Virus record (IMG/VR): IMGVR_UViG_3300008113_000003
Coordinates: 62,001 to 126,000 of that record
DNA from: a virus
Length of the DNA stretch: 64,000 bases
Reading direction: 5' to 3' (one strand)
Part shown: piece after piece, positions 14,523 through 51,828 of the stretch
How the letters are laid out: the number at the start of each line of letters is the position of its first letter
How positions within the stretch are numbered: position 1 is the first letter of the stretch
Made by a program: the position numbers and the translations under genes
Notes under the pieces: model-generated
Told to the model about the DNA's origin: nothing
What the model saw: the letters and a program-made list of their open reading frames with translations, nothing else
Databases searched by the model: none

Positions 14523-15329
14523 TTACAATAAATTAAAGATTCCCCCAGAATAGAACCTAAGTTTTTTAATAGCTTTTTCCTTAATTTGCCTAACACGTTC
14601 TTTGGTTAACTCCAAATCCTCAGATATTTCTTGAAGGGTGCATTCATTACCATCTAAACCAAAATATCTAACAATAACAAGCTTTTCAGTCTCCGTTAAG
14701 TTATTTAAAACGTTATTTAAAGCGTTAATTAGATTTACCCTGTCGCTGTCATAAGCTTCGTCTGGTCTTGGTGATGATTTATCTTCATAAATATCGTACA
14801 ATGATAATCCCTCGTCATCATATTTATCATCAAGCCTTTCAACGGATGGTAAATTTGAGAACCCGTTAATGACATCGTTTTCAGTCATTGAAGCGAAATT
14901 CTTTTGTGCTTCTTTGTTAGCTTTACGAACATCATTAATTACGTTAATTGGTAATCTGATCATTCTTGAATTATCGTGCAATGACTGGATAATTGACTGT
15001 TTAATCCACCAAACGGCATAGGATAGGAATCTAACCTCTTCCTGTTCGTAATTAAACCTTTCAGCCGCTTTTAATAGACCAAGATTACCCTCAGATATTA
15101 AATCCTCAAAATTCAAACCTTGACCCTGGTATTGTTTCGCTACGGTAATGACATATCTAAGGTTTGAATAAATAAGCTTTTCTTTTGCTTTACTATCCCC
15201 AGTTTTAATTTGTTTGAGCAACTCACGCTCCTCAAGTCGGCTAAGTGGCTCATGTTTTCTTACGTCTTGTAAGTAATTTGCGATCTCTCTTTGATCGATC
15301 CAGTGTGATGTGTCAATTCTCTGTGTCAT
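14523..15329 (-). CDS. RNA polymerase sigma-70 family factor
   Basis: 268 residues with the full set of sigma-70 regions: 1.2 (about 15-40), 2 (50-125, including NLRYVITVAKQYQGQGLNFEDLISEGNLGLL and SYAVWWIKQSI), 3, and 4 (about 212-260, LTETEKLVIVRYFGL and LTKERVRQIKEKAIKKL). The layout and length match the short primary sigma factors of Bacteroidetes more than T4 gp55. Region 2.4 (SRMIRLP) is well kept, but the region 3 segment is shortened and acidic. It probably redirects host polymerase to phage promoters, perhaps the TATTTAT elements. Which promoters it reads is inference. Confidence 0.9.
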   Translation of the reverse strand: MTQRIDTSHWIDQREIANYLQDVRKHEPLSRLEERELLKQIKTGDSKAKEKLIYSNLRYVITVAKQYQGQGLNFEDLISEGNLGLLKAAERFNYEQEEVRFLSYAVWWIKQSIIQSLHDNSRMIRLPINVINDVRKANKEAQKNFASMTENDVINGFSNLPSVERLDDKYDDEGLSLYDIYEDKSSPRPDEAYDSDRVNLINALNNVLNNLTETEKLVIVRYFGLDGNECTLQEISEDLELTKERVRQIKEKAIKKLRFYSGGIFNLL

Positions 15330-28892: not shown

Positions 28893-31800
28893 TTATGGTA
28901 GGCTTATGTAATCTCTTGGGTCAACCGTGTCAATTGTTAAATTATTTGCACCGTCAAAGTCAATTTTAACAACTCTACCTTCACTTATATCTTTTAATTT
29001 TATTGTTCTTGTTATTAATCTACCAACATTTGTTTTTGTTGACACAAAATACCCATTTTCAATACCATTATCGTTTGTATCAAATAATGCGTAATTATCC
29101 ATGAAACCTGACTTATATCTACTAAGATTTCTTGTTACATCAGTTTTAACACTAATTGTAATAGATTCTCCGTAATTAACAACAATGTTTTCGTCAAAAT
29201 ATTTATTTTTTGTTAACACCCTATTGTATAAAGTACTATTAGATGTGTTATTTTCAACAATAACAGTGACATTTGAGGCACCGTTTTGGTTGATGATTAA
29301 TCTAACTTCTGGTTTAAATCCAGTTATTAACTCAACATTTTCAGGTAATGGTGGTGCTGTCATTATTCTAGGTTTTAATTGGTCTAATTTTGTCAAATCA
29401 GCTTCAAATAAAACACCAAATATTGTTTTTGCTGTATGCCCACAAGGATTTGTTATGGTTAAACCACCAATAAACTCACCAGTTAACGGTAATCCGTTAT
29501 CATCTCTTTCATAATAATAGTCCATTATTATGTCATTTTCTATTCTTCTAAATCCAGTTAAACCGTATTCTTTAACACTTCTAAGGTTTGTGTTTTTAGC
29601 ATCAAATAGTTTATTAACACCGTTTAATAATTTAGCGTTCGTTGTTGCACCACTAAATGTTTGTTCGGTAAATGATGTTTTTAATTTTAAATTCTTATCA
29701 AAGAAATATAAATTATTTTTTGTGGTTGTATCAAGTGATTCGATTTTACCTTCATAAATTTTAACTTTACACCTATCTTTTTTAAATGTAAATTTATTAA
29801 CTAACATAAAGTCACGTTCTTCCCAGTTAGTTGATAGATGAGGTTCTGTTGTTGTTGAAAATGATCCAACCCCATTAACCGTTCTATATAAAACGTTTCT
29901 ACTAACAGTGTATTTTTTACTGTGATAATTAGAATTACTATTATACGTAGTACCAGTCGCTATAAAACCTAATATACCGTTATCTTCAGTTGTTCTTGCT
30001 AAACGGTGGAACATTGGTTGTATATTAAATGGGCCGTTAATGTACATCCAAAGTACTTGGCCACATAATAATGGCGATAAGAAACTTGGGACTACTTGTG
30101 TAAGCGTATAACTATTTTGTATTAAATTAGTGTCTTGTGTACCACTAAAAGTCATTAAACTGTCCGTAGTACCCGTGTAATTTAATGTTGATCCAGTAAT
30201 CCTAAAATAACTTAAAATGTCAGAATTTTCCGATATTGTATTGGTATCTCCAGGTAATGTTGTGTAGAACATATCTGCAATCAATATATTTGTTGACCCA
30301 GTAAATGGTAAAGAATAAGTATAACCACCTGAGTTAGCAGTTGTTGGTAATAAATTTTTAACCCTATAAGCCGATGGCCCAAGCGAATATAGATTTGGAT
30401 TGGTTGTTACACCAGTAATATCTTTAGTCCAAAATGGGTTATTTGCGTTTGCACCAGTTATTGGCATTTCATACCAGCCAGTACCACCTGTTGGTGATGT
30501 TCCAGCGGTAGTACCCGTTGGGTTATACCAAAAACTATATTTAGAATCAATCGAAAAATTAGATCCTGGGTAATAAACGATTTCACCAGCAAAATAATCA
30601 TTTGTTGGGTCCCAGGTTAACGGTTTATTATAAACATATTCATATAAATCATATATTGCTGTTGAACCAGAACCACTAATATAGACTTTAGCAATATCAC
30701 CTAAATTTAATTTTTGAGTTGGTGATCCGTTTAATAGTATTGGTTCTGAATATCTGTATGGTGCAACATTTGGTTTAACGATTTCATAGTTAGGTAACTT
30801 ATCGTACCCTATTGGTGTAAATCTTTTTAGATCGTAATTTTCAATAGGTATAAAACAAGTTCTGGCACCATTTGGCCTGTATATTGGGTGTATTTCAAAT
30901 GTACTTGATGAACCAGATATTTTACACAAATGATCCGCTGTTATATCCTCAATACAAACATATAATCTATCAACATCAATTGTTTCAACTGTTGTACCAC
31001 TTGTAGTTTCTACAACTTTTCTATAATCATTTAATTTAATTTTAACTATGTCATTTATAACATAGTTATTTACGCTAGAACTAAAATAAGGTACGACTGC
31101 TAAAATATCTTTATATAGTTTTGTACCGTAAACACTATTCTCCTTTTTAAAGTAACCGTATGTTGAACCGCTGATTAGTTTATATCTTTTTTTAGAGATT
31201 AAACTTTCGGATAAATTGGTGTTAAAATCTAATTGGTTGTAGTCGGCAAGACCCTCATCATATCCAATAAAATCAATGGTTGTACCAGTAACTTCAACAT
31301 CATTCTTATACAATTTTAAAAAGGTATAATCTAATTTATTAAGGTTAGCGGTTCTAAGTTTTGGTGTTTTACCGATAAAAATACTTTTTGTTATATTAAC
31401 ATTTTCAATTGTTTGTGGTGTGTTACCTAAATAATTACCTGTAGATGTAATCGTGTACGATTTTTCTAACCCAGGAAATGAGTAGTATATTTGAACACTG
31501 TCGCTATAATACGTAGGAGTATTCGTTAATTCTTTACCTCTAACTGTTAACTCAAAATCAACATAATCGTTATTAAAGTTTTTTTCGTAAATTGAAACAT
31601 CACCGATTTGCGAGGTAGCCTTGTTTTTCTCAAAATATTTACCATACAATAAACCAAAATTATTAACTTCATCATACGACTGATTTATATTTAGTTTATG
31701 TACAAATTGGTACCTGTCAAAACTATTATCTATTTTAGTTAAGTATCTATCAATTGTGTGGTCATCGTTATAACCAATTGGCTCTATTGATAAAGCATCT

Positions 31801-34800
31801 TCAAAATAGTGGTTGTTAATTAAACCCCTACCACCATTAAAGTAAACCCTAAATCTAGGGTCATCTAATGAATCGTAGGTGGTTTCATTAGCGTAATCTA
31901 TATCAATTGTCTCATATCTAGATAGTTTACATGACTTACCTATCGGTTCAATAACCAAATAAACTTTTGTGTCGACAAAAAATACCCCTTCATGTGTAAA
32001 ATTAACCACTCTAAGTAAACTTTCATCAGCGCCACTAAAATTAAATAATTGCTCATATATTATAACCCCAAATTGGTCCATTAATTTAATTAAAACCGAT
32101 TGTTGTGTAGCAAATTCTGATTCAAAAAACAGGTCAATATCAAATTTAAAGTACTTATTTTGTTTTATTAAGAAATAACCATTACTTAAACTAATATTAC
32201 GATTAACAATATTGAAATTTGTATTAAGTGACTCAAAATCAATATAGTTATTTTTGTCTGGAATCAATTCTAAAGATTCGACTAATGTCTGTGTTGCGAT
32301 TGAATTCTCGTCTGGTGTGTAAAAAGGACCAAGTTTGTCTTCATCTAGTGAATAAAACCCGTCAAATGATAAAGTATTAGAATCACTTATATATAATTCA
32401 TCATTTAATAAATTATCAATAACTTTATAGGTTTCCTGATCCGTTGCACCACTATATACTTGATACAAGTATAATGATTTAGTTAAATTAAATGATATTC
32501 TATCCGATAAAGGGTTAATTAAATTCTTTTTAAGATAGGCGGAATTTATATGCATATAAGGATCCGTTGTTGTCCTACCTGTATAATGTTGATACATACC
32601 AGGAACCACTGTTGTGACTGTTGTACCAGTTGGTGTTGTTGTTGTACCAGTAACGGTATCAAACGTAACTTCATAATAAGTTGAGCTATGTTTTACAATA
32701 TCACCTTTATAATAAACCACACCGTTTGTCCAAATATTTTCTTTCTGGTATGGTATAATCCAATTAGATGCCGCACCGTACAAAGCATTATTTGGTTTTG
32801 TTGTTGCGGTATTTTTTGAATAACCGTAATATTTGGCTTGTTCAATTGTTAAATATTTACCAGATTCATCATAATAATCGGTAATACCAGCTGTAGACAT
32901 TGATATTGTATCTCCAGTAAATTTAAAATAGCATGTATGTGGTTTTGGTATTGGGCATAAGAAGTCTACGTCAGCTGCTAAATGTGCATGCCCAAAAGAT
33001 ATTGCCTCAATGTAATAATTTCTTTCATCAATTGATGTCGCATCCAATGGAACGCCATCCAATTTTAGATCTATAATTTTATTTGTTGATCCAAAATAAC
33101 CGCTGTTATAGAATGTTAAATAACCAGTTGTTGATGTAATTGAGCTAGAGTGGTTAACAATACCCGACCCACCACCTTCACTCACTAAAGTTGTTCCAGC
33201 TGTTGTTTTACCGTCATGTATCGTTAAATCATCCCCAGTATTTGTTGTAAAAGTTATTTGGTATGTACCAGGACCTTCTGGTAATTTAACAACATGAGTG
33301 TTACCCACAATAGGGTCTGGTGTTAATAATATGGTATTTGAATCTTTAAATGTTAATGTTTTTGCATCAGCATCAAAAGGTATGTACTCATATACCATCT
33401 CACCATTAACCGTTAATGAATCAGGGGTATGCTTCTGCATTAAAACCAAATCAGTTATTTCAACATCATTCGGAAAATTCCTCATATTCCAAATTGTAAA
33501 ATAATTTGTTGTAAACGTTAAATCTTTTGAGTATGTTCTCGTTGTACCGCTAAGACCACTAATACCATCTAATTGTGTACCACTTATATAACCATCATAG
33601 ATAAGTAAATCATCTAAACCTTCTAATGTGAATGTCACCTTATATGTACCAGGGCCATTTGGTAATGTTATCGTATCCGTATCATAACCAGCGTCTAATA
33701 AAACATAACTCTTTCTAAACTCTGGATAGGTATTAATCTGAATTGGATTAATGAATAGAGTGTTGGTATTTAATCTATATAATTTATTGTCATATGTGAT
33801 AAAAGTACCATTTTTTTGCGTTTCAGTAAGTGGTATAACAAATAAATCGGATATGTAACAATCAGAACCGTAGTTAAGATCATTATAAAACGATAGTGAG
33901 CTTGTACCAGCTGTTACTACTGAACTATAAGTAAGCGTAGAACCTGAGGTGTATGGTAAATTAGCCAATAACGGGCTACCGTTATTTGGACCATTATAAA
34001 CAACAAGATCATCGTTGCTCGTGTATTTAAATGTAAGTAAATAATCACCTGATCCAGGTAATGTAATTTGTTTACTAATTGGGTAATAATTAGGCCCCAC
34101 GGTGTTATCACCTATACCAAATGATGGTACGTTACCTTTATTTACATTTCCGTAATATAACAAATCGTTACCAAAATCTAAGCCATCTTCCCATTTATAT
34201 ATTTGTACATCTGAATTACAAGCATCTTCTATACCATAGTAAAAACCGAAATATTCATTAATAGTCGGATCGTATCCAATGTAGTTTTTACCTTTAAAAC
34301 CTTCAAATGTAAATGTTGAGGATTCCCCAACAATTGGTAATTTATTGGTACCAATTGGATTAAATGGGTTTGTTAAACCTTGGTTAACAGGTCTTTTTGC
34401 TAATTCCTGAAATTCAGAACCATCTGTACCTAACCAACTAACGCTATTGTTTAAACCATGTTTATAGATAAATTTATTATCCATAAACTTAGAGTTCTGT
34501 ATTTTCTTACCCGCATTTAATATTGTTGTTGCTGGTGTAAATTGTTGAACTAATTTTACCCAAGATGAGTCAAAATAACTTAAGAATTCTAAATCTTTTG
34601 TGTTTGTCATTGGTGACGAAACGGAATTTAGATAGTCGTAATATATTTTTGTTAGCGTTGGGTATGTTTTAATTGTTTTTCTGTTATCTGGCTTGATGTA
34701 ATTATCAAGTGATTTTTGTAAAAACTGGTTAAAAGTTAAATCACCACCATTAATTGTTGGTACAAAAGCGAAGTTTAAATCACTATTAATATCAACAGCA

Positions 34801-36911
34801 TTTCTATTGTAATATCTATAAACAGATAGATCAAATATCTTATCTGAAGCTAAATAAACCTCTAATTCCTTAGAGTTAATAACTAATTTAGAGTGTGGTT
34901 CATAGTATTCAGTATACCCAACAGAGTCTTCTGATAACCTTAAAACCTCTTCAGTGCTATAAACCCAAGATTTTACGTTATCGGTATATCTATCAACCGT
35001 AAACATACTCACACCACCTCTTTTTTCAAAAGCTTGTATGTACTGTTTACCGAAATCATATGGTCCGAAATTTTTACCGTCATTTGTTGTTGTAAACCCA
35101 CTTTCTTGGTACCTAACATCATGCGGTACTGTTGGATAACCATCTTTATCAAAAGGTAATAATGTTAGTAACGTTTCATCTGAATAAGCCCCACGGTATA
35201 TTTCAAAGGATTTGTCTGTGAAGTTAACTGGGTTTCTCGCAATGTATACCTTTTCATCTATTTCAAAAATAGAATCTGGTAAACCAACTAAATTTAAAAT
35301 AAACTCAATTGATTTTCTGGTTCCCTTTGATTTCCACAGATAATAAGCGTTTATAAAGATTCTTCTCCATAGCTCAATGTCAATTTCAGCTGGAGTTAAC
35401 CCAGGTTCAACATTAAGATCCTTAATGTTGAATAGGGATTCGATGATAGTGTTCTCATCCTCAACATTATAGGTCTCAAAACCCAACATGTTACCAAAAT
35501 TTTTAACCAACAAATCTGGAATGTTCTCAATTTTGTCATAAGTTAAATTTGTCATGAAGGTTATACCATCAATGTATTTTCTTATGTTATCGAAATTCCT
35601 ACCAATGAGACTAAACATTAGATTTATTTTTCTATCATCGGTGTCAAACTCCTTTAAAGAATCTGTTGTTAAAAATCTGGTAATCAGATTTGTTTTTGTT
35701 GCATCAAAATCATCCGATATCTGATTTAATTTTGTCAAATAAGCATCAAAATCTGTTGTAAAAATATCGATGTTAGTTTCATCTAATTGTGGGAATACCA
35801 GGTGTTCTTCTGTGTTTAATCTTGCACCAGAATCTGTTACTTTTGTATACCTAATAACCGATGAATAAACTTTTAGATCATAGTTATAATCCATCAAAAA
35901 TTTACCCATGTCGGATAAACTATTTTGGAATTCATCGAATTTTTCTAACGAAGGTTTTAACCAGAATGTTGTGTTAACCGTTTGGTTATTATTAACCACA
36001 CTACCAAATGGGTTACCCTGTACAACCAAATATATACCATTATCGGTATCAGTTTGTGAACTAGGTAATGTTACATTTAATATTTTATATTCTGTGTCAT
36101 TAAAATAAACAACAAAGTCGCTATAGCGTTTAGAAAAGTTCCTAACTGGATTTATATTTTCTTCGTCAGTAATAGTTGTACCAGTTGCTGTAAATTCAAC
36201 GCCAAAAGGGTTATCAATGTTATTTAAGTTTATCTTAAATTCAGAGGTATCTTTGTTACTGTTGTAACTATAATCTGTTACTGTTGGTGATAACAAACCC
36301 AAAACATTTAATTTGATTGATGCTGGGTATTTTTGTGATATCTCAACAATAGTATTTTTAACCGTTTCTTTTAGTGGTGAATATAAAACATAATTTTCAA
36401 GTTTTTTCTTATCAAAAAGAATGGTTACTGTTAAATTGTTTTCAATCTTAGCGTTAATAGATTCAACTAAATTAGTTGATGACTGTGTATTCCTGTTTGG
36501 GTTTAGGTTATTAATCGATTGAGCTGTGTATGATCTTGTTTCAGGACTAATATTTGCGGTTTTACCCTCAACTGGTCTTTGTGAAACACTTGTATTAATC
36601 GAAAAATTACCTAAAGTAAAGAATGGGTCACCAGAAATCTCATTATTATTGTTTGCAAATTGCAAACCAACCGCTTTATCACCAATGTTACCCCTTCCAG
36701 ATATAGCATTTGGGACACCTTGTCTTTTTACAAATCTTAGTGCCTGTTCATAGGCCAAATACGTTGCACAGGGCACATATTTATTTTGCCCATTAATATT
36801 ATATGTTCTGTATCCATTACAGCCTAGACTAGCCGAAGCTGCAAGAGCCGCTTCTGGTGTATCGTATAAATCAGCTATTAACGGTGTGTTTGAGTAACTA
36901 AGATTAGCCAT
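28893..36911 (-). CDS. Giant baseplate/tail protein, 2672 aa, with tail-protein-I-like and CUB-like domains
   Basis: The largest complete gene here. Around residues 440-560 a region typical of tail protein I (gpI/wedge-type) occurs, with WRRIFINAYYLWKSKGT and RKSIEFILNLVGL. Three related modules follow at about 945-1030, 1085-1165 and 1205-1290. Each starts with a LP-(x)-GPGTY or GSGDY strand and contains a DD-L-x-(I/V)-x-(D/N)G motif and a Ser/Thr-rich strand; together they look like CUB-type beta sandwiches. The rest is Tyr/Asn/Thr-rich beta structure. It may combine a wedge component with receptor- or sugar-binding modules. The domain names are inferences from pattern. Confidence 0.65.
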   Translation of the reverse strand: MANLSYSNTPLIADLYDTPEAALAASASLGCNGYRTYNINGQNKYVPCATYLAYEQALRFVKRQGVPNAISGRGNIGDKAVGLQFANNNNEISGDPFFTLGNFSINTSVSQRPVEGKTANISPETRSYTAQSINNLNPNRNTQSSTNLVESINAKIENNLTVTILFDKKKLENYVLYSPLKETVKNTIVEISQKYPASIKLNVLGLLSPTVTDYSYNSNKDTSEFKINLNNIDNPFGVEFTATGTTITDEENINPVRNFSKRYSDFVVYFNDTEYKILNVTLPSSQTDTDNGIYLVVQGNPFGSVVNNNQTVNTTFWLKPSLEKFDEFQNSLSDMGKFLMDYNYDLKVYSSVIRYTKVTDSGARLNTEEHLVFPQLDETNIDIFTTDFDAYLTKLNQISDDFDATKTNLITRFLTTDSLKEFDTDDRKINLMFSLIGRNFDNIRKYIDGITFMTNLTYDKIENIPDLLVKNFGNMLGFETYNVEDENTIIESLFNIKDLNVEPGLTPAEIDIELWRRIFINAYYLWKSKGTRKSIEFILNLVGLPDSIFEIDEKVYIARNPVNFTDKSFEIYRGAYSDETLLTLLPFDKDGYPTVPHDVRYQESGFTTTNDGKNFGPYDFGKQYIQAFEKRGGVSMFTVDRYTDNVKSWVYSTEEVLRLSEDSVGYTEYYEPHSKLVINSKELEVYLASDKIFDLSVYRYYNRNAVDINSDLNFAFVPTINGGDLTFNQFLQKSLDNYIKPDNRKTIKTYPTLTKIYYDYLNSVSSPMTNTKDLEFLSYFDSSWVKLVQQFTPATTILNAGKKIQNSKFMDNKFIYKHGLNNSVSWLGTDGSEFQELAKRPVNQGLTNPFNPIGTNKLPIVGESSTFTFEGFKGKNYIGYDPTINEYFGFYYGIEDACNSDVQIYKWEDGLDFGNDLLYYGNVNKGNVPSFGIGDNTVGPNYYPISKQITLPGSGDYLLTFKYTSNDDLVVYNGPNNGSPLLANLPYTSGSTLTYSSVVTAGTSSLSFYNDLNYGSDCYISDLFVIPLTETQKNGTFITYDNKLYRLNTNTLFINPIQINTYPEFRKSYVLLDAGYDTDTITLPNGPGTYKVTFTLEGLDDLLIYDGYISGTQLDGISGLSGTTRTYSKDLTFTTNYFTIWNMRNFPNDVEITDLVLMQKHTPDSLTVNGEMVYEYIPFDADAKTLTFKDSNTILLTPDPIVGNTHVVKLPEGPGTYQITFTTNTGDDLTIHDGKTTAGTTLVSEGGGSGIVNHSSSITSTTGYLTFYNSGYFGSTNKIIDLKLDGVPLDATSIDERNYYIEAISFGHAHLAADVDFLCPIPKPHTCYFKFTGDTISMSTAGITDYYDESGKYLTIEQAKYYGYSKNTATTKPNNALYGAASNWIIPYQKENIWTNGVVYYKGDIVKHSSTYYEVTFDTVTGTTTTPTGTTVTTVVPGMYQHYTGRTTTDPYMHINSAYLKKNLINPLSDRISFNLTKSLYLYQVYSGATDQETYKVIDNLLNDELYISDSNTLSFDGFYSLDEDKLGPFYTPDENSIATQTLVESLELIPDKNNYIDFESLNTNFNIVNRNISLSNGYFLIKQNKYFKFDIDLFFESEFATQQSVLIKLMDQFGVIIYEQLFNFSGADESLLRVVNFTHEGVFFVDTKVYLVIEPIGKSCKLSRYETIDIDYANETTYDSLDDPRFRVYFNGGRGLINNHYFEDALSIEPIGYNDDHTIDRYLTKIDNSFDRYQFVHKLNINQSYDEVNNFGLLYGKYFEKNKATSQIGDVSIYEKNFNNDYVDFELTVRGKELTNTPTYYSDSVQIYYSFPGLEKSYTITSTGNYLGNTPQTIENVNITKSIFIGKTPKLRTANLNKLDYTFLKLYKNDVEVTGTTIDFIGYDEGLADYNQLDFNTNLSESLISKKRYKLISGSTYGYFKKENSVYGTKLYKDILAVVPYFSSSVNNYVINDIVKIKLNDYRKVVETTSGTTVETIDVDRLYVCIEDITADHLCKISGSSSTFEIHPIYRPNGARTCFIPIENYDLKRFTPIGYDKLPNYEIVKPNVAPYRYSEPILLNGSPTQKLNLGDIAKVYISGSGSTAIYDLYEYVYNKPLTWDPTNDYFAGEIVYYPGSNFSIDSKYSFWYNPTGTTAGTSPTGGTGWYEMPITGANANNPFWTKDITGVTTNPNLYSLGPSAYRVKNLLPTTANSGGYTYSLPFTGSTNILIADMFYTTLPGDTNTISENSDILSYFRITGSTLNYTGTTDSLMTFSGTQDTNLIQNSYTLTQVVPSFLSPLLCGQVLWMYINGPFNIQPMFHRLARTTEDNGILGFIATGTTYNSNSNYHSKKYTVSRNVLYRTVNGVGSFSTTTEPHLSTNWEERDFMLVNKFTFKKDRCKVKIYEGKIESLDTTTKNNLYFFDKNLKLKTSFTEQTFSGATTNAKLLNGVNKLFDAKNTNLRSVKEYGLTGFRRIENDIIMDYYYERDDNGLPLTGEFIGGLTITNPCGHTAKTIFGVLFEADLTKLDQLKPRIMTAPPLPENVELITGFKPEVRLIINQNGASNVTVIVENNTSNSTLYNRVLTKNKYFDENIVVNYGESITISVKTDVTRNLSRYKSGFMDNYALFDTNDNGIENGYFVSTKTNVGRLITRTIKLKDISEGRVVKIDFDGANNLTIDTVDPRDYISLP

Positions 36912-37802: not shown

Positions 37803-38591
37803 TTATTGATCTTTAAAATTATATCCTCTTGTGTTTATTTTGTAGTACCCAAATCCTGTTTTTACCAATTCATTTAAATCTTTAACATTTTTTAGTTTTC
37901 TGATTGGTTCAAACACATTATTTGTTCCTCTGTCTATAAATACTTCAGATAAAACTTTTGGTTCATCAACCATGTCAGAATAATAATTTAATCCTGGTTT
38001 AACCGTCTCATCCAAATTATTTCTCATATATTTAAATATAGTATTTCCAGTGGCATTATCAACATAAAATATGGGATTTGGTGTATCTAAATACAAAACA
38101 TATTCAATTCTAGCGTCAGATTCCAATAAAATCATTCCAACCACATTAGTACCACTTATTTCTATCCTTTTACCAACCCTAATATTTTCTGGTGCGGGTT
38201 TTTCTATGGTACCTTTACCGTCAACAATTTTAATAGGTTTATCGGTTCTTTCATTTTCAAATTGTTTTAAAGCCACATTTTTAGGGTAACTAAGATCCAA
38301 TAAAGAAAATTTACTATCTGTAACACCTTCTATGAAATATTTTTCGGTAGAGGGTAAAAAATGATTTTTAACTTCCTCAAAAGTTGATATGTTATTTTTA
38401 TTTGTAACATAATTTTTAGTCGGTTTACCTTTTGCGAATAGTTCGTTATCGGTTATTGTAGCTTCAATTTGTGCTATCCTATCGTTAGATTCATATTGAT
38501 ATGGTAATACAAAAGAACCATTTGGGTCAATTCTTGACTCAAGGTAAACATTAATTACTTTATCCTTACCATTTATTAATATTGTTGCCAT
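37803..38591 (-). CDS. Virion-block hypothetical protein, 262 aa
   Basis: Begins MATILINGKDKVINVYLE. Mixed alpha/beta protein with a strand-rich middle (RIEISGTNVVGMILLE). No recognised motif. Its stop lies 2 bases from the next gene and its start overlaps the 709-residue gene by 1 base. Position in the block indicates a baseplate part; an equivalent of a T4 wedge protein such as gp8 is possible but not demonstrated. Confidence 0.5.
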   Translation of the reverse strand: MATILINGKDKVINVYLESRIDPNGSFVLPYQYESNDRIAQIEATITDNELFAKGKPTKNYVTNKNNISTFEEVKNHFLPSTEKYFIEGVTDSKFSLLDLSYPKNVALKQFENERTDKPIKIVDGKGTIEKPAPENIRVGKRIEISGTNVVGMILLESDARIEYVLYLDTPNPIFYVDNATGNTIFKYMRNNLDETVKPGLNYYSDMVDEPKVLSEVFIDRGTNNVFEPIRKLKNVKDLNELVKTGFGYYKINTRGYNFKDQ

Positions 38592-40720
38592 TATTTTAAA
38601 TCAATGTTAATTGGTATTGTTATTTTTTCTGTTACTGACCCATTTGAATTTAATTCACTGTAAACAATAACTAATGAACCTTTAATATTCATCTCTTTTA
38701 TTATCCCAGAATAGAATAATCCGTGTTGCCCAAAAACCATATCAAGTGAAATAATCATTTCTTCCTCATATAATAATTTTTTAGAGCTAGTTGTTGCAAC
38801 TAAAGCAAAAGTTTGCTCTTTAAAAGATGGTTCTGTTACTAATTTTTGTGAAAGATTCTGTGTTGTATATTCATTACCTGGCCCAGAAAGAGCACCGTTT
38901 GGATTAACTGACCCTTCTAATATACTCATGTTAATAAAAGACCTCTGGTAAAGATTGTTGTAAACATCTTGGTTGTGTGATAAAGATGTTTCTTGAGTCA
39001 CCTCATCTGAGTAGACCTCAAAATCGTTACTAAATAAAGTTTCTAGATAATTAAAAGTCTTTTTATTAATTGTTTTTGGTAAGACATAAGCCTCACTATA
39101 TAAATCACTACCTGTTGGGAAATTCTGTATCTCATACGAAAGATTTGCAGTGGTTGTTAAATCAATACTTTGTTCGTTTGAGGTAAATTTTATGTCCTCT
39201 AAAATAATACTATTAATTAGGAAATCTGACCCCTCATTTATGTTTTTTAATTTAATAGCTTCTATCGATCTTTTAGACCCTCTTATATTCGTTGACCCAC
39301 ATTTTATATCTCTTATATTTAATAAACCAATAGTTTTTACATCAATATTTGTAGCTTTTTGTAAAAGATACCCCTGGTAATTACCTTGTGATATATATTT
39401 TGTGGTGACTAGCATGTATCCATAATCTGGGTCATCCACCCAGTCGGTTTTTTCTTCTATTTTAACATCAACCGCCTCAGTTTCAGTAATAAACCCTTCT
39501 TTAGCTGTTAAATATTTTGTGTCAACTAAATAATAAGGCCCAATTATTTTTTCTTTAAATGGTAATATGTTTGTGTAAACCGATACTGGTTGTGTTGGTG
39601 TAACATTTGTTGGTTGCTCATTTTTAACAAAAAATTTTGACCAGTAATCATCATAAGCAAATTCATACAAATCAACTTTGTCAACTTCTATGTCAAATTT
39701 ATCCGTTGTATTATTTAAGTCAAAAATTTTATATTTTTTTGATGAAAAATCTAATTCATATTTTAGGTATAGACTTTTTTGATCGAAAGTTTCAACGTTT
39801 TGTAACCACTTCTTTTTATTGTTACTTTTTGCTGAAGGTATAAATTCTATTTTTCTACCGTTTAAAGCGTCCCAAAAATAAAATTTTGCATAAAAATCAG
39901 ATTTTATGTATTTTTTTAAAAAGAAAAATGAATAACCGTCAACACCCTCAGATAAATTAAATACGGGTCTTTTTTGTGTGATTCCCTCTGTCGTAACCGA
40001 TTCAATTATATTGCCAAACTCATCAAGTATGTTGTAGCTCCTAGTTTCCCTTTTCTCTTTAAAAAGATATCTATCAGAAGCGTAGATCGGTATTGTTGTT
40101 ATTCTTTTTTGTTTTTCAACTTCATAAGTGTCGTATATTTCTATGATTAAAAAAGAATTATACAAATATGTCTTATTGTTAAAACCGTATTTTAAATCAA
40201 CCCAGATATCTTTTTTATCCCAGAAGGGTAAAGCAAATGTGTTATAAAAATGTGGGTACCCTGGTTTTGCTGGGTAATTTTTTCTTAGCTCAACCATTGG
40301 GTCGACAACCACGTATGGTTTAATATCATTTATTTCACTTCTAGTTAATTCAAGAGTGTCATCAAATTGCGGTGTCATTAATCCATCTTCATTTCTAAGC
40401 TCAAATAATTCGGTTTTAATAGCAGTTTTTGATGATATTACTTTATTACTGTACTCACTAAATGGTGTCTCAATGTAACTTTTTATTTGCTCAATCTCAT
40501 CGTTTAAAAGATATCGCAAAAAAAAGATATCAAATTCAATGGTATTATTGACATGTTTATATTCAATTGATTCGAAATCAATCACATCATTAATATTATT
40601 TAATGATTCAATATTCAATGTTTTTTCAAAAACAAAGTCGGTATCAGAAGCATTGTCTTCCGAAAAAACAAATAAATTTGTCACCAAAGATGTGTTTTGT
40701 TTAAAAGGTTTTTTTAACAT
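38591..40720 (-). CDS. Virion-block large protein, probable baseplate component, 709 aa
   Basis: Tyr/Phe/Lys/Asn-rich protein (MLKKPFKQNTSLVTNLFVF...) with a predominance of beta strands. A C-terminal stretch, IISLDMVFGQHGLFYSG, precedes a final strand pair (ITIPINIDLK). No enzyme or binding motif identified. It overlaps the 556-residue gene by 7 bases. The size and position fit an elongated wedge or fibre-attachment protein. Confidence 0.55.
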   Translation of the reverse strand: MLKKPFKQNTSLVTNLFVFSEDNASDTDFVFEKTLNIESLNNINDVIDFESIEYKHVNNTIEFDIFFLRYLLNDEIEQIKSYIETPFSEYSNKVISSKTAIKTELFELRNEDGLMTPQFDDTLELTRSEINDIKPYVVVDPMVELRKNYPAKPGYPHFYNTFALPFWDKKDIWVDLKYGFNNKTYLYNSFLIIEIYDTYEVEKQKRITTIPIYASDRYLFKEKRETRSYNILDEFGNIIESVTTEGITQKRPVFNLSEGVDGYSFFFLKKYIKSDFYAKFYFWDALNGRKIEFIPSAKSNNKKKWLQNVETFDQKSLYLKYELDFSSKKYKIFDLNNTTDKFDIEVDKVDLYEFAYDDYWSKFFVKNEQPTNVTPTQPVSVYTNILPFKEKIIGPYYLVDTKYLTAKEGFITETEAVDVKIEEKTDWVDDPDYGYMLVTTKYISQGNYQGYLLQKATNIDVKTIGLLNIRDIKCGSTNIRGSKRSIEAIKLKNINEGSDFLINSIILEDIKFTSNEQSIDLTTTANLSYEIQNFPTGSDLYSEAYVLPKTINKKTFNYLETLFSNDFEVYSDEVTQETSLSHNQDVYNNLYQRSFINMSILEGSVNPNGALSGPGNEYTTQNLSQKLVTEPSFKEQTFALVATTSSKKLLYEEEMIISLDMVFGQHGLFYSGIIKEMNIKGSLVIVYSELNSNGSVTEKITIPINIDLK

Positions 40721-44625: not shown

Positions 44626-46440
44626 TTAATTAATTCCTGTTGCAATAACTGGTATAACTTTTATATCAGTATCACCATTTCTAATGTTTAGCATTTGATA
44701 TTCATCAACAATTATGTAATTGCCTGTTATATCTATTTCACCAGTTGCGGAATCAATTAATGATTGGCTTGTTGTGTTTGTTGAATAACCAACTCCAGTT
44801 TTATTAAATGCTTTAATATAATTAACGTTTAAAACACCATCAACTTGCGTAATCTTTTTGATCATCTCACCAACACTGTAACTCTTACCTAATTGTTTTT
44901 TCTCATCCAAAAATTCGTTTTCAACAATTGTGGTTATATTTGATACCGCTGATATTTGTTGACCGTTTTCAACCAAAACACCAATTTCAAAACCTAAATC
45001 AATGATTTCAGCTGGTTTAACAACCACATAATCGTTTATCATTCTAAACTTGGATAAATAAGCGGCTATGTTTTCCATCAATAAAGATGTCACCGTGTTT
45101 GATATATCACCATTAGCGTCATAAGACAAGACACCTATTTCAATTTTATTTTGTTTTTGTGTTATACTGGTTTTTGCTGGGGTACCAAATTTACTTGGCA
45201 TACTTAATAGTAGGACTTTGTAGTCATTTAACGTTACAGCCCTATTTTGTGCAGCAAAATTATAACCAATATAGTTCCTTAACTCCTCAACCGTTGGTTC
45301 GTCAGAACCCCCGACAGCTGGTGTTGTATTTGTAACCGTTATTGATGATTGTACGGTTGAATTAATTGCTGTATCTGGGCCGTTTATAGTCGATGTTAAT
45401 CTGTTAATAGTTGTTATTGTACCAGGGCCAGTATTTGTTCCAACACCGCCACCAATTCTATATCTAACAAATATTGTTGTGTTAGCTATTGGTGCCATAC
45501 CAAGGCTACCATTTCTTAAAAAACTTTTAAGGTCAAAAGTACCCCCATCTAGGAAATCGTCTAGAATATCAAAAGATGAATCCGTTTGGGCACCAAAGGT
45601 TATTGTACAAAAACCTTTTGGGGTAAACTCGGTAATGTATCTTTTATCTATTTTTTGGTAAATACCTTTTGCGATACCACTTACTCTAGGTGAATTTATG
45701 TCTTCAACAAAAACACTATCTTCAGCTAATGAAGGTACTTCATACCACTTATTTGGACTACTGATAAATTCGCTATCGGTTGGTGTCGCTGTAAAAGTCG
45801 TACCAGCTTTATGGATTACAGACTCAACAGATAAAACGTTGTTTTCTGGTAAAGTTATTTTGTAGAAAGGTATTGAGTTTACAAACGTTTGGTTATAAAC
45901 TTTTGTCGTACCAGCTATAACAATACCAGTTTTTGTAATTGAGTAAGCTGTTATCTTGTTGTTAACAAAAATAGGTCTCTTTGTTCTATCAACGTTACCA
46001 GAACTATTTGTGGCTAAATTAAAATCAACATCATACACCAATTCATATGTATTTTCGCCATTTGAAACTTGTGTACCAGCTTTAATAACTGGTAAGTATC
46101 TTATATCCTCTTGATCTCCGTAAACAGGTACTTGAGCTGTAAACTCAACAACCGCAACAGCTGAAGATTTTGTGGGTAATTTAAGACCATATGTCTTAGC
46201 AATATTATATAACGATTGTCGTTCTTGTGCGTAATCTAAAACAGTTTCTTGCAACGCCCTATCGATTTGATAGTTTAAGTTATCAGCAATAGCCGCATTT
46301 AAATCTAAGAATACTGATAGTATTGACGCATCGTTAAAGCTTTGTACAACCTCTGGGTAATACTGTTTGATATAGTTTATTTGCTCCGTTTTTAAAGAAG
46401 CAAAATCTCTTTTACTATAATTTATTTGTCTGTTTGCCAT
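44626..46440 (-). CDS. 6: Baseplate wedge subunit gp6-like (baseplate J-like)
   Basis: 604 residues. The N-terminus NYSKRDFASLKTEQINYIKQYYPEVV, then FNDASILSVFLDLNAAIADNLNYQIDRALQE is the characteristic gp6/J-like helical segment. The C-terminal half contains the conserved TVEELRNYIGYNFAAQNRAVTLNDY stretch (about 385-410) and an ends-with-beta domain. It forms the wedge scaffold of contractile-tail baseplates with gp25 and gp7-type proteins. It starts one base before the gp25 stop, and is cotranscribed with it. No SD-like site is present. Confidence 0.85.
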   Translation of the reverse strand: MANRQINYSKRDFASLKTEQINYIKQYYPEVVQSFNDASILSVFLDLNAAIADNLNYQIDRALQETVLDYAQERQSLYNIAKTYGLKLPTKSSAVAVVEFTAQVPVYGDQEDIRYLPVIKAGTQVSNGENTYELVYDVDFNLATNSSGNVDRTKRPIFVNNKITAYSITKTGIVIAGTTKVYNQTFVNSIPFYKITLPENNVLSVESVIHKAGTTFTATPTDSEFISSPNKWYEVPSLAEDSVFVEDINSPRVSGIAKGIYQKIDKRYITEFTPKGFCTITFGAQTDSSFDILDDFLDGGTFDLKSFLRNGSLGMAPIANTTIFVRYRIGGGVGTNTGPGTITTINRLTSTINGPDTAINSTVQSSITVTNTTPAVGGSDEPTVEELRNYIGYNFAAQNRAVTLNDYKVLLLSMPSKFGTPAKTSITQKQNKIEIGVLSYDANGDISNTVTSLLMENIAAYLSKFRMINDYVVVKPAEIIDLGFEIGVLVENGQQISAVSNITTIVENEFLDEKKQLGKSYSVGEMIKKITQVDGVLNVNYIKAFNKTGVGYSTNTTSQSLIDSATGEIDITGNYIIVDEYQMLNIRNGDTDIKVIPVIATGIN

Positions 46441-46441
46441 T

Positions 46442-46858
46442 TTATACTGTTATTGATAATTTATCGCTCGTTGAGAATGTTTTGGAGCTTATTGTGTAAT
46501 CTAAGTTTATTCTGATTTGGTGTTCCTTTTCGGTATCATTTAAAAATTCAGGCTCATTCCCAACATTTGTAATGTTAATTGCATTTAATTTTAAATTTGG
46601 TATGTATTTTTCAACCGCATCCTGAATCTCATTTTCTATTTTACCTAATGTTGTTTCATCAAGCGGTTCAAAGATATATTGATACAAGTTAGTCCCAAAG
46701 TCTGGTAAGTAATACCTAGATCCCTTTCTTGTTAAAAGAAGGTGTATTAACATTGATTTCACCTCAGCTTCTGGTATTGTCGTTAAACCAACATAATCAC
46801 CGCTACTTGATTCCGTAAAAGGGAAATCAATACCAAATGTTTGTTTTTTAATTGCCAT
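46442..46858 (-). CDS. 25: Baseplate wedge subunit gp25 (GPW/gp25 family)
   Basis: 138 residues. The family core is visible: a conserved LLTRKGSRYYLPDFGTNLYQYIFEPLDE (about 40-67) followed by a helix (IENEIQDAVEKYIP) and strands to the end. gp25 nucleates sheath assembly onto the baseplate with gp6. This is the first gene of the structural block, lying 95 bases downstream of nrdA, behind a terminator and a GATATTTAT element. Confidence 0.9.
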   Translation of the reverse strand: MAIKKQTFGIDFPFTESSSGDYVGLTTIPEAEVKSMLIHLLLTRKGSRYYLPDFGTNLYQYIFEPLDETTLGKIENEIQDAVEKYIPNLKLNAINITNVGNEPEFLNDTEKEHQIRINLDYTISSKTFSTSDKLSITV

Positions 46859-46953: not shown

Positions 46954-49368
46954 TTATGCGCTACACCCAAAACAATCAAATTGGCTGTTTTCTGGTTTTA
47001 CCGTTTCCTGAACTTGTATTGGTTCTGGTTTAGGTGCGATTGCAGCGGTTGGTGTCTCACTGTTACTGATACTGATTGCTAAGTGTTTTGCACCAGTTGA
47101 GATAGCTTTTGTTCTAACATAGTAACAAAGTGATTTAAGACCACGTTTCCAAGCCCAGAAGTGACTAGATGACAATTTCTGAACGGTTGGTGCCTGGAAA
47201 TAAACGTTCATAGATTGTGATTGGTCAATAAATGGTGCTCTATCAGCGGCCATATCAATCAATTCTTTCTGTGAAACTTCCCAAATTGTTCTATATTTTT
47301 GGATTAAGTGCTCAATTCTCTTAATTTTCTTCTCATAATGCTTATCAGTTGGGTCCAAAAATTTGTTAAAATTAATATTTTGGATCGACCCTTCGTTCAT
47401 AATAATCTCATTTTTAAAAGCTTCTGACCAAATACCCAAATCTTCAAAATCCTCAATCAAATATTTGTTAGCGATTAAGAACTCACCACCTACAACTCTT
47501 CTATTGAATAGATTAGATGGGATAACTTCTGTCATTTCATATGAACCTGTTATTTTAGCGGAAGAGGCCACTGGCATTTGTGCGGTAAATAGGCTATTGC
47601 AAATACCATGTTCTTTAACCAATTCTTTTAATGAATCCCAATCCCACATTAAGTCAGATGGATCAACACCCCACATATCAAATTGATAAATACCTTTTGA
47701 CATTGGGGAACCTTTGAAGTGTTTGTAAGGTTTGTATTCACCAGTTTTACACAATTCATTACTTTCGCTGATAGCAGCAAAATAAATCGTTTCAAAAATT
47801 CTTTTGTTAAGTGTTTTAGCCTCTTCAGACGTGAACACATAGTCCATTAAAAAGAATACATCAGCAAGTCCTTGAACACCAATAGCAATTGCTCTTTGTT
47901 CCAAACCGCCTTTTTTACCCTTTTCAGTTGAATATGAGTTAATGTCAACTACTTTATTCAGAGCCCTAACAATCTTTCTAACCTCAAAGTAAAGTTGGTC
48001 AAAATCAAATGTTTTGTTTTTAACGTAATTTTTAACAACCACAGATGATAATGTACAGATAGCTGTTGTCTTTTCATCTGTAAACTGATAAATTTCGTTA
48101 CAAAGATTTGATTGTTTGATAACCCCAATATTTTGGTGGTTTGTTTTTTTATTGGCATTGTCTTTTGAACAAAGATATGGTACCCCAGTTTCAACCTGTG
48201 ACTCAATAACTTTAATCCAGATTTCCTGGGCCTTTACTTTCTTACCTAAGCCCATTTCTACAGCTTTATTGTAGTTGGCTTCATACTCATCCCCAAAACA
48301 CTCTTGGAGTGGCTTAATACCGTTCTTAACGATGTCATTAGGGCAGAATAAATACCAATCACCATCTTCTTCAACCGCTCTCATGAAATTATCTGGAATC
48401 CATAACGCTGTGAATAAATCTCTTGCTCTTAATTCTTCAGCACCAGTGTTCTTTTTAATTTCAAGCAGGTCAAAAATATCTTTGTGCCATGGCTCAATAT
48501 AGATTGCTGCACTTCCTGGTCTACGCCCTTGTTGGTTAAAGAAACGAAGTGATTCGTTTACAATCTTAAGGTATTTTAATAACCCACCAGCAAAACCACC
48601 AGATGTTTTAATTCTACTCTCTTTACTACGGATATTTGACATACATAGTCCAATACCAGCTGCGTCAGCAGAATAAACAGAGATGTCTCTTAAACTATCT
48701 AAAAGACCGTTTCTAGAGTCATCGTTATTGTAGTGTAACACACATGACGCTAATTGTGGTATTTTGGTACCAGAATTAATCATAATAGGTGTTGCTGGTG
48801 AAATGTATTGGTTAGACAATGCCTCGTAATACTCAACAGCCTCTTCAAATGATTTGGTAACCCATAAAGCCACACGCATATACATGTGTTGGGGTCTCTC
48901 AATTTGTTTACCTTGAGATGTTTTTGTTAAGTACATTTCATGTAAAGATCTCCAGGCAAAATAGTCAAATTGGAAATCTCTATCATGATTAATAACGGCA
49001 TCTACGTTATCAACACCATAATCCTCAATCATTTTTATCAATTCATCATTGATGATGCTATCTTCAGCTAATAATTTCATTGTTTCGCTAAAGCTAGGGT
49101 TTGTCTCTTTGTGATAAGAAGAGATGGCAATATTGGCGGCTAATTTACTGTAATCATAATGACTACCAGTATATGAAGCAGCTATTTCAGCCAACAACTT
49201 ATCAATCTCTTTTGTTGTTACAACCCCCTCATTTGGTAATGAAGTGATTACTTTTATAAAAATTTCGTCTGAGCTAACTTTTAACCCTTTAGCCGCTTTT
49301 TTAATTCTAGTTAAAATCTTTGACGGGTTAAATGAGGTTTGCTCATCATTACGTTTTTGTATGATCAT
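46954..49368 (-). CDS. nrdA: Ribonucleoside-diphosphate reductase alpha subunit (class Ia)
   Basis: 804 residues. The N-terminus (residues 1-90) looks like an ATP-cone regulatory domain (MIIQKRNDEQTSFNPSKILTRI). The active-site residues are present: QLASC209, NLCNE (N421, C423, E425) and C438. The C-terminal redox pair is CFGC in the last residues (CFGCSA). It reduces ribonucleotides to supply dNTPs for phage replication, with the beta subunit encoded directly upstream at 50346-49396. The gene ends at a strong terminator. Confidence 0.95.
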   Translation of the reverse strand: MIIQKRNDEQTSFNPSKILTRIKKAAKGLKVSSDEIFIKVITSLPNEGVVTTKEIDKLLAEIAASYTGSHYDYSKLAANIAISSYHKETNPSFSETMKLLAEDSIINDELIKMIEDYGVDNVDAVINHDRDFQFDYFAWRSLHEMYLTKTSQGKQIERPQHMYMRVALWVTKSFEEAVEYYEALSNQYISPATPIMINSGTKIPQLASCVLHYNNDDSRNGLLDSLRDISVYSADAAGIGLCMSNIRSKESRIKTSGGFAGGLLKYLKIVNESLRFFNQQGRRPGSAAIYIEPWHKDIFDLLEIKKNTGAEELRARDLFTALWIPDNFMRAVEEDGDWYLFCPNDIVKNGIKPLQECFGDEYEANYNKAVEMGLGKKVKAQEIWIKVIESQVETGVPYLCSKDNANKKTNHQNIGVIKQSNLCNEIYQFTDEKTTAICTLSSVVVKNYVKNKTFDFDQLYFEVRKIVRALNKVVDINSYSTEKGKKGGLEQRAIAIGVQGLADVFFLMDYVFTSEEAKTLNKRIFETIYFAAISESNELCKTGEYKPYKHFKGSPMSKGIYQFDMWGVDPSDLMWDWDSLKELVKEHGICNSLFTAQMPVASSAKITGSYEMTEVIPSNLFNRRVVGGEFLIANKYLIEDFEDLGIWSEAFKNEIIMNEGSIQNINFNKFLDPTDKHYEKKIKRIEHLIQKYRTIWEVSQKELIDMAADRAPFIDQSQSMNVYFQAPTVQKLSSSHFWAWKRGLKSLCYYVRTKAISTGAKHLAISISNSETPTAAIAPKPEPIQVQETVKPENSQFDCFGCSA

Positions 49369-49395
49369 TTTATTTTTTTATTTGTTTAGTTTAAT

Positions 49396-50346
49396 TTAAA
49401 AATCGTCAGTAAAGCTAAGTTTCTCGTTAAGTTTAGCTTTCTGATACTCTACGGTTCTTGATTCAAAAAAGTTCCCTTTTGTCTCCACGGCAATTTGTTC
49501 CATGAATTTAAAAGGTTGTTCAACATTAAATTCTTTTTTGCACCCAAATTTAGTCAACAAACCATCTGTGACAAACTCTAAATATTGTTTCATTAGATTT
49601 GAGTTCATACCAATAAGTGACACTGGTAATGACTCTGTGATAAATTCTTTTTCGATATCCAAAGCAGATAATAAAATCTCTCTGATTCTAGATTCTGAAG
49701 GTTTATTCTCAACGTGGTTGTTGATTAAATGAATTGCGAAATCACAATGCAAGTTTTCATCTTTAAAGATAAGTGTGTTTGCGTTGCATAACCCCTGCAT
49801 CAAACCTCTGGATTTTAACCAAAAGATTGAACAGAATGATCCTGAGAAGAAAATACCCTCTACAGCAGCAAACGCAACTAGTCTTTCTTGAAAAGAAGCG
49901 TTTTCAATCCAATCCAAAGCCCATTTAGCTTTTCTTTGTACGGCTGGTAAATGTTCCAATGCCCTGAAACTTTCTAGTTTTTCTTGTGCGTTTGATATGT
50001 AGGTATCAATCAACAAAGAATACATAAGGCTGTGGATGTTTTCCATTGCTATTTGCATGCCATAAAAAAACTTGGCTTCTGGATATTGGACTTCCTTTAA
50101 AAAATTCTCGGCAAGGTTTTCATTAACAATACCGTCCGATGAAGCAAAGAACGATAAAATGTTTTTAATGAAATACTTCTCGTTATCCGTTAGATTTTGC
50201 CAATCCCTGATATCGTTAGATAAATCGACTTCTTCGGCTGTCCAAAACGCAGCCTGGTGTTGTTTGTAAAACTCCCAAATGTCGTTGTGTTCGATGGGGA
50301 AAATAACAAATCTGTTTGGATTTTCCTGTAAAATTTTTTCTTGCAT
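49396..50346 (-). CDS. nrdB: Ribonucleoside-diphosphate reductase beta subunit (class Ia)
   Basis: 316 residues from the ATG at 50346 ([13 protein letters not shown]). A longer reading to 50400 would need a TTG start and adds an unlikely N-terminus. The diiron ligands and radical tyrosine region are visible: [13 protein letters not shown] (Glu, His and Tyr), FAAVEGIFF, and [12 protein letters not shown]. It forms the radical-holding partner of NrdA. Just upstream is a TATCTTTG element that could act as an extra promoter inside the operon. Confidence 0.95.
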
Positions 50347-50389
50347 AATTCTTATTAATCTTAATTTTTCTTGTTTAAATAAATATGGG

Positions 50390-50397
50390 CAAAGATA
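50390..50397 (-). promoter_or_regulatory. Possible Bacteroidetes -7 element upstream of nrdB
   Basis: TATCTTTG on the minus strand matches TAnnTTTG, and lies 44 bases before the nrdB ATG and just before the helicase stop. No TTTG occurs at the right distance (the -33 position reads AGTG), so it is weaker than the other three. It is also followed by a CATATTTATTTAAA string. Confidence 0.35.
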
Positions 50398-50403
50398 CAA
50401 TTA

Positions 50404-51816
50404 TTACCCTAAATCTTCACTAATTTCTGTTGTTTCTTCTTTATCTTTTTTTAACCCTTCAAGATATTTCCTTCTACTTTCAATACTTTGCTGTTGTTTT
50501 TGGGTCTCAAAACCTTTTTCAGTTAGCATATCATTTGTGTCAATTAAAATCCTTGAATTGTCAAATAAGCAATCTTTAAATATCATACCATCATCACCCA
50601 TACGGTTTTTAAGGATTGATATTGTTGCCACCTTTTGATCTTTTTGTTCAAGAGTCTTACCTATACTCATGATAAAGTGAGCGATTTGTGCCTTTTTAAG
50701 GTTACCACCCATATTTTCAGTCTTAACCACCTCAACACTTGTAGAACTTCTATTACCCTGTGTTGCGGTCCAACCAGCAACATTCATCTCATCTACCATA
50801 CTTTCAAACGCACGCATGATTTTACCTTCATTTGACCATTCTTCTGAATTTGAAAACTCTTTCTCCATAGAAAGACAGTCAATGTAGTCTAAGACAAGCA
50901 TGTCCACTTTAGTACCCTTAGAATTGATTTTTTTGATGATGTTTTTAATTTTATTAATTGTAACACCATCGGCTGGTAATTTTTGTAAGTACAGATTATT
51001 TTTGTGTTGGTCTTTAATAATTTTAATTTTACTTTGTATTAAAGATTTATTATCTGATAACTCACTAAGGGGTATACCAGTTAAAGCTGAAAAGTGTTTT
51101 CTCTGTACAGCTTCTTCTTTATCCTCAAAAAATATTTGTAATACGGTTTTTCCGTTAAGGAATGCGCTACTAGCGACTTTTGTTAGGAATGTTGTTTTAC
51201 CAACACCAAGTGGTGCGATAACTAGACCAACTTCACCTTTTGACAAACCACCTTTTGTGCAGTCATCAATACCCTGAATACCTGTTGGCATTGGGTCTCT
51301 ATAATCTTCAGATAATACTTTATCTATGTTATCGAATAATAAGATAGGATCTTGTTCTTCCTTAAAAGTAATAGCATCCTTAATCTTTTTTTCGATCTCA
51401 TCATAGTCCGAAATAACACCACGATCTAATTTCGTTTTTATTTCATTTACAGCACTACGTATAGATTGTAATTTACAGAATTTTTTAGCGTTATTCTGTG
51501 TGTTTAGGTTACCAACTTTACAATCCTCTATATCGTTGATGGTATCATCTAATTGCGTTCTAAAAGCTTCGTGCTCAACAGGAATCTCATTTTTAACCTC
51601 AAGTCTTAACGATGGGAAATTTAATAATACATCGTGTTTTTCATGGTATTTTTTAATTATGTGAGCAATTTTCTGAAAAGCTTCAGATGGAAAATATTTG
51701 GGTTCAATAATGTCAATTATCGATTCACCAAATTTATGGTCTGTAATTATTTCATTGATTAATTGTAATTGAAAGTCTTTGCCTAAATCTTCAAAGCTGC
51801 TTATTATGTTAGCCAT
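50404..51816 (-). CDS. 41: DnaB-like replicative helicase (gp41 role)
   Basis: 470 residues. An N-terminal helical domain (1-150) precedes the RecA-like motor with Walker A APLGVGKTT (201-209) and Walker B MLVLDYIDCL near 305. DnaB-type motifs follow, including ATQGNRSS near 355 and a later KNRMG motif. It unwinds the fork ahead of the polymerase and recruits the primase encoded at 20252. It is cotranscribed with the genes upstream and ends next to nrdB. Confidence 0.9.
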   Translation of the reverse strand: MANIISSFEDLGKDFQLQLINEIITDHKFGESIIDIIEPKYFPSEAFQKIAHIIKKYHEKHDVLLNFPSLRLEVKNEIPVEHEAFRTQLDDTINDIEDCKVGNLNTQNNAKKFCKLQSIRSAVNEIKTKLDRGVISDYDEIEKKIKDAITFKEEQDPILLFDNIDKVLSEDYRDPMPTGIQGIDDCTKGGLSKGEVGLVIAPLGVGKTTFLTKVASSAFLNGKTVLQIFFEDKEEAVQRKHFSALTGIPLSELSDNKSLIQSKIKIIKDQHKNNLYLQKLPADGVTINKIKNIIKKINSKGTKVDMLVLDYIDCLSMEKEFSNSEEWSNEGKIMRAFESMVDEMNVAGWTATQGNRSSTSVEVVKTENMGGNLKKAQIAHFIMSIGKTLEQKDQKVATISILKNRMGDDGMIFKDCLFDNSRILIDTNDMLTEKGFETQKQQQSIESRRKYLEGLKKDKEETTEISEDLG

Positions 51817-51828
51817 TTAATTTTATTT

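Follow-up and report, generated by a model that had tools for sequence, protein, structure and literature searches.

The window, i.e. the whole stretch of 64,000 nucleotides analysed here, encodes a 2672-residue baseplate protein that carries three homologous copies of a small domain, each at its own insertion site. On balance, the copies are probably accessory, exchangeable adhesion modules, that is, carbohydrate-binding-module (CBM)-like jelly-rolls held in three fixed loops, in putative contact with host glycan. The observations behind this reading are the homology of the copies, their single predicted fold, the variable occupancy of the sites among relatives, two mosaic exchanges and a faster divergence of the copies.

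The baseplate protein and its three domain copies

The 2672-residue protein is the product of a single ORF, without interruption, in an IMG/VR virus record of 206 kb, and its synteny extends to relatives and to phage immuto. The gene, its baseplate neighbours and its conserved upstream block are located as follows:

28893..36911, minus strand: baseplate (wedge-type) protein of 2672 residues, carrying the array
46442..46858, minus strand: baseplate wedge gp25-like protein (PHROG 261, E 1.5e-17)
44626..46440, minus strand: baseplate wedge gp6 / Baseplate_J-like protein (PHROG 6, E 1.5e-22; PF04865 above cut-off)
35232..35726, minus strand: conserved tail-protein-I-like block, residues 396-560, including LWRR..N..YL.KSKGTRKSIEFIL.LVGLP, recognized by identity among relatives

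Along the direction of transcription, the order is gp25-like, gp6/Baseplate_J-like, five unassigned proteins, the 2672-residue protein and a 910-residue protein, and the same gene set surrounds the homologous protein in relatives whose contigs span that region. A similar order is found in Flavobacterium phage immuto, which encodes a distant homologue of the 2672-residue protein; there, a gp25-like gene, a wedge gene and two further genes precede a 1266-residue protein, the middle part of which matches residues 396-560; the isolate having both a gp6-like gene and the tail-I block is a phage infecting Flavobacterium. The gp25/gp6-like neighbours in the same cluster, together with the immuto gene order, support the ORF as a baseplate protein, as the sequence-only reading had proposed. 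PHROGs contain no family covering this protein or most of the neighbouring genes, and bacterial genomes, scanned for close relatives of the whole protein, yielded none. Searches of PDB sequences gave no usable match with the protein, one homologue or the domain profile, and none at all with the tail-I profile.

The same reading had placed a tail-protein-I-like segment upstream of the array. The block is real and conserved, with identities of 81-85% among domain-bearing relatives and of 24-30% to immuto gp109 and LR756508. Support from Pfam is weak: Tail_P2_I (PF09684) is matched below threshold, with a best E of 0.1, in two of 12 relatives. The KSKGT...GLP-type motif, the position and this weak Pfam signal make a tail protein I identity plausible.

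The most divergent protein of the tail cluster is the 709-residue product of the third gene upstream (38591-40720, minus strand), which is 37-46% identical to its counterparts in the lineages with a single c2 copy (L007 excepted), versus 52-58% for the 2672-residue protein. As divergence peaks there, the primary receptor-binding protein is probably not the 2672-residue protein, and the 709-residue protein is a better candidate for a primary receptor-binding protein or fibre. Elsewhere in the window, genes for ribonucleotide reductase subunits, a DnaB-like helicase, an exonuclease and a UvsX-like protein (46954-54341, minus strand) sit between the baseplate genes and a 2389-residue protein with tape-measure and metallo-endopeptidase matches (56820-63989), and the phage encodes an RNA polymerase sigma factor (14523-15329, minus strand; PHROG 351, E 1.8e-55).

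The array itself comprises the following parts:

33825..34094, minus strand: copy c1, residues 940-1029, insertion site 1; assigned by homology, sole copy in relative L020
33426..33704, minus strand: copy c2, residues 1070-1162, insertion site 2; AF2 pLDDT 92.5, sole copy in eight lineages
33048..33320, minus strand: copy c3, residues 1198-1288, insertion site 3; assigned by homology, seen only in the window and L006/L003
33765..33809, minus strand: scaffold hairpin between sites 1 and 2 (GTFITYDNKLYRLNT), kept in relatives, also those with empty sites
33339..33398, minus strand: scaffold strands between sites 2 and 3 (MVYEYIPFDADAKTLTFKDS), kept in relatives, also those with empty sites
33006..34184, minus strand: array cassette, residues 910-1302, the unit exchanged in L007, from the mosaic test and pairwise identities

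The three similar segments picked out by the sequence-only reading lie where it had put them, at residues 948-1026, 1082-1159 and 1209-1288 of the ORF, within domains of about 85-95 residues. Their pairwise alignments reach local scores of 117, 105 and 143; the highest scores among 500 shuffles of each pair were 69, 65 and 58, and the mutual identity of c1, c2 and c3 over the aligned domain is 32-39%. L14, G17, G19, Y21, F25 and D31 (c2 numbering) are conserved throughout the 15 copies from relatives, and Y-D-G is near-invariant across them; the DD-L-(T/L/V)-x-x-(D/N)G motif recognized in that reading is correct.

No additional copy of the domain was found elsewhere in the 206-kb record, in nine related viral records or in phage immuto, and the phage collection searched gave no relative (one chance match, E 8). 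Bacterial genome contigs, in a scan that reaches close relatives only, gave none either. As far as found, the domain thus appears to be without sequence relatives outside this phage group, and the outcome is a profile for a domain absent from the family libraries searched.

Predicted fold and family of the domain

AF2 predicts the same strand order for c1, c2 and c3, which bears out the suggestion of a duplicated beta-sandwich domain, with strand lengths of 5-11-4-5-10-6-10, 5-11-5-6-10-6-10 and 6-10-5-5-10-6-8, respectively. Neither outcome that the reading had named as refuting it, dissimilar sequences or differing folds, was observed. The AF2 alignment omits the L020 copy, because MAFFT had put it on site 2 while the flanking scaffold indicates site 1. 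Modelled alone, with the paralogues as alignment, c2 shows seven strands of at least three residues, at a pLDDT of 92.5 and a pTM of 0.83; the model of the 486-residue array region keeps this order in each copy, at a medium overall pLDDT of 64.6.

In Foldseek searches of the PDB with the single domain, CBM4, CBM29, CBM6, CBM61 and a porphyran CBM rank first; these are modest matches, with a probability of 1.00 but E values of at least 0.002 and TM scores of 0.45-0.68. Among viral models, the search retrieves domains of tail fibres, BppU, neck passage proteins and distal tail proteins. In the 15 copies, neither a CBM family nor the BACON profile is matched at E<=10, and the YDG domain PF18657 stays below its cut-off, with one copy of the 15 at 17.9 bits versus 25.

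The sequence-only reading had called the modules CUB-like. Genuine CUB domains, taken up from a host and then duplicated, could serve in protein binding or calcium-dependent adhesion, and the DDLxIYDG motif, the all-beta sandwich and the presence of CUB-containing proteins among the Foldseek matches of the three-domain model speak for them. However, at E<=10 Pfam CUB (PF00431) is matched neither in the entire phage record nor in the 15 copies, and hhalign against eight solved CUB domains (PDB chains fetched with a generic CUB consensus) gives a probability of 7.5%, over 19 columns around the YDG motif. None of the 15 copies has conserved cysteines, so that the disulfides of CUB are missing, as is its N-terminal segment; no CUB chain occurs in the top 50 of the single-domain search, and the scan of bacterial contigs, limited to close relatives, revealed no relative of the domain. 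The CUB matches of the three-domain model are of multi-jelly-roll proteins, which match as a class. Support for CUB goes no further than one shared D-x-L-x-I-Y-D-G motif, and a CUB identity is, in our assessment, very improbable.

Site occupancy, divergence and exchange among relatives

The relatives are IMG/VR viral contigs, all close ones metagenomic, retrieved by peptide-based scans that can miss divergent relatives. These scans reveal two sister clades, one with the domain and one without it, and a search directed at a conserved part of the scaffold added no genotype. On an otherwise collinear protein, three, one or no copies are present:

Three copies (c1, c2 and c3): window, L006/L003
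c2 only, eight lineages: L007/L008, L010/L011, L021, L022/L023, L024/L026/L027, L025, L028, L033
c1 only: L020, with sites 2 and 3 empty; the site is assigned from flanking scaffold, in one contig
Zero copies: L058-L077 clade, with scaffold strands between the sites retained

In L020 the linker is nearly that of the window (FGIGDNT--PNYYPIS). In the L058-L077 clade, whose records reach about 321 kb, the domain HMM has no match, and the loops, where measured, are 6-23 residues at site 1 and 9-12 at site 3, compared with 110 and 105 in the window. In a tabulation of seven full-length domain-bearing relatives, the array is the only place where a 50-residue bin has gaps of more than 8. The site loops tolerate zero, one or three domains, and the domain is dispensable, as the zero-copy clade indicates. 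In a tree, the copies group by site, with supports of 85/86 for c1, 96/90 for c2 and 99/99 for c3, which suggests that the sites have long been occupied by distinct domain lineages.

Between the window and L006, dN is 0.33 for c1, 0.25 for c2 and 0.17 for c3, whereas most large regions outside the copies show 0.03-0.11, with 0.20 in residues 2101-2350. The dN/dS of the copies is 0.18-0.36 and, being below 0.4, gives no sign of positive selection; the copies thus appear to diverge faster than their flanks, yet under purifying selection. Outside the array, the protein diverges most in residues 2101-2350 (29862-30611, minus strand), which show 20-44% identity per 50 residues to more distant domain-bearing relatives and include another Y-x-x-G-E-I-V-Y-Y-type segment.

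Two relatives carry mosaic arrays. The L007 protein is 90% identical to the window over residues 1-900, and on both flanks of the array its DNA is 84-89% identical to window/L006 and 72-74% to L022/L033, while in the array scaffold the preference is inverted, with 59-61% to window/L006 and 79-80% to L022/L033. A three-sequence test delimits the block to window residues 910-1302, with a descent of 72 versus at most 13 in 2000 shuffles, counts that are not formal probabilities since the shuffles assume independent sites. Inside the block 140 sites go with L022 and 68 with L006; outside, the counts are 191 and 694. A simple deletion of two copies from a window-like array was considered and rejected, because the alleles differ across the whole block and not just in copy number. 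That L007 and L008 were recovered from different samples argues against a chimera. Since the other pairs drop by about 10-13 points in the block while L007-L022 climbs from 74 to 79, L007 is more likely the recipient of the exchanged array.

Only one other segment switches partner along the 2472-residue L007 gene:

32637..32735, minus strand: CBM5/12-like segment of 33 residues, residues 1393-1425; PF02839 sub-threshold at E 0.3; second L007 mosaic stretch

Its segment score is 22-28, versus a 99% shuffle limit of 7-12. In L033, an exchange known from one contig, the upstream part is 88% like L022, but c2 is 89% like L021/L025 and 64% like L022, and the block corresponds to window residues ~1034-1164. 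Triples with L010/L028, run as controls, lack a mosaic block at the array. Judged from these alignments, L007 appears to have undergone a swap of the whole array, and L033 a swap of c2 only.

A probable accessory adhesion array and its alternatives

The strongest alternative to an adhesion array is that the copies are structural spacers: they would make no contact with the host, but fill out or rigidify a long arm of the wedge protein or touch adjacent baseplate subunits. The scaffold and gene order are unchanged in the domain-less relatives, and jelly-roll and Ig folds are frequent structural building blocks, as a spacer would have it. A part fixed by subunit contacts is, however, not expected to diverge faster than its surroundings, nor to be replaced by divergent alleles, with one copy for three, while the flanks remain 84-89% identical, and we regard a purely structural role as rather unlikely. 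It is less likely still that insertion-tolerant loops collect domains neutrally and that the mosaics reflect ordinary recombination of the tail cluster, devoid of function. Phage genes do recombine frequently, and here the copy number varies without other visible change, but recombination in L007 affects no part of the 2472-residue gene other than the array and a single CBM-like segment, and the purifying selection on the copies (dN/dS 0.18-0.36) indicates that they do something.

The proposal that the array contacts the host, made in the sequence-only reading as a candidate receptor-binding array, agrees with the pattern of variation, namely an occupancy of zero, one or three and the exchange of either the whole array or a single copy. 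The small CBM-like jelly-roll domains, in three fixed loops of the tail-protein-I-like baseplate protein, would be exposed at the surface and probably touch a host-surface glycan in a weak, multivalent contact. A role in adsorption may follow, in which the copies would raise avidity or tune host range before dedicated receptor-binding proteins engage, and the array may itself bind a receptor. Homologous recombination in the conserved scaffold that flanks them would carry arrays and single domains from one lineage to another. Counted against adhesion are the modest Foldseek matches (best E 0.002), the structural roles that jelly-rolls also serve, the existence of a domain-free clade, and the fact that divergence in the tail cluster is highest in another gene.

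Accessory binding domains are best documented for cultured siphophages of Gram-positive bacteria, and Ig-like domains are optional surface domains of phage structural proteins. The present domain differs from the latter in its predicted seven-strand jelly-roll with CBM-type matches, and in being inserted in loops instead of fused at a terminus. The galactose-binding-like jelly-rolls of CBM families 4, 29 and 6 are the best fold matches of the single domain, but they have 130-165 residues versus ~85-95 here, with no sequence match and a best E of 0.002, which is not significant. In the evolved Dit (evoDit) of lactococcal skunaviruses and other siphophages, a core tail-tip protein likewise carries insertions of carbohydrate-binding-type domains, which some close relatives have and others lack; these insertions are reported to aid skunavirus adsorption to exopolysaccharide-bearing strains (PMC10688798, PMC6669499), and an evolved Dit is reported to restore full infection of such strains (PMC10688798). 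Here, the scaffold is instead a tail-protein-I-like giant protein next to gp25/gp6-like genes, without a Dit match in its 2672 residues, and the domains belong to another family, with three sites per protein and a one/three-copy swap. BACON repeats are also carbohydrate-binding-type domains repeated in tail proteins (PMC6949934), but the copies here, which are not BACON by Pfam, occupy three separate loops parted by scaffold strands and are not arranged head to tail. By analogy, the array is best read as working like the CBM insertions of evolved Dits or the arrays of BACON, although its carrier protein is unrelated.

More tentatively, and at less than even chances, the three loops may be docking sites for a new small jelly-roll adhesion domain, with the flanking scaffold as recombination arms, so that host attachment would be reprogrammed by swapping the array or a single domain while the rest of the baseplate is untouched. 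The adhesion reading would mean that large uncultured phages use a comparable trick in another protein, where zero, one and three copies occur naturally alongside two mosaic exchanges. This series and the mosaics would make the effect of accessory-domain copy number and allele on host range testable with defined natural alleles.
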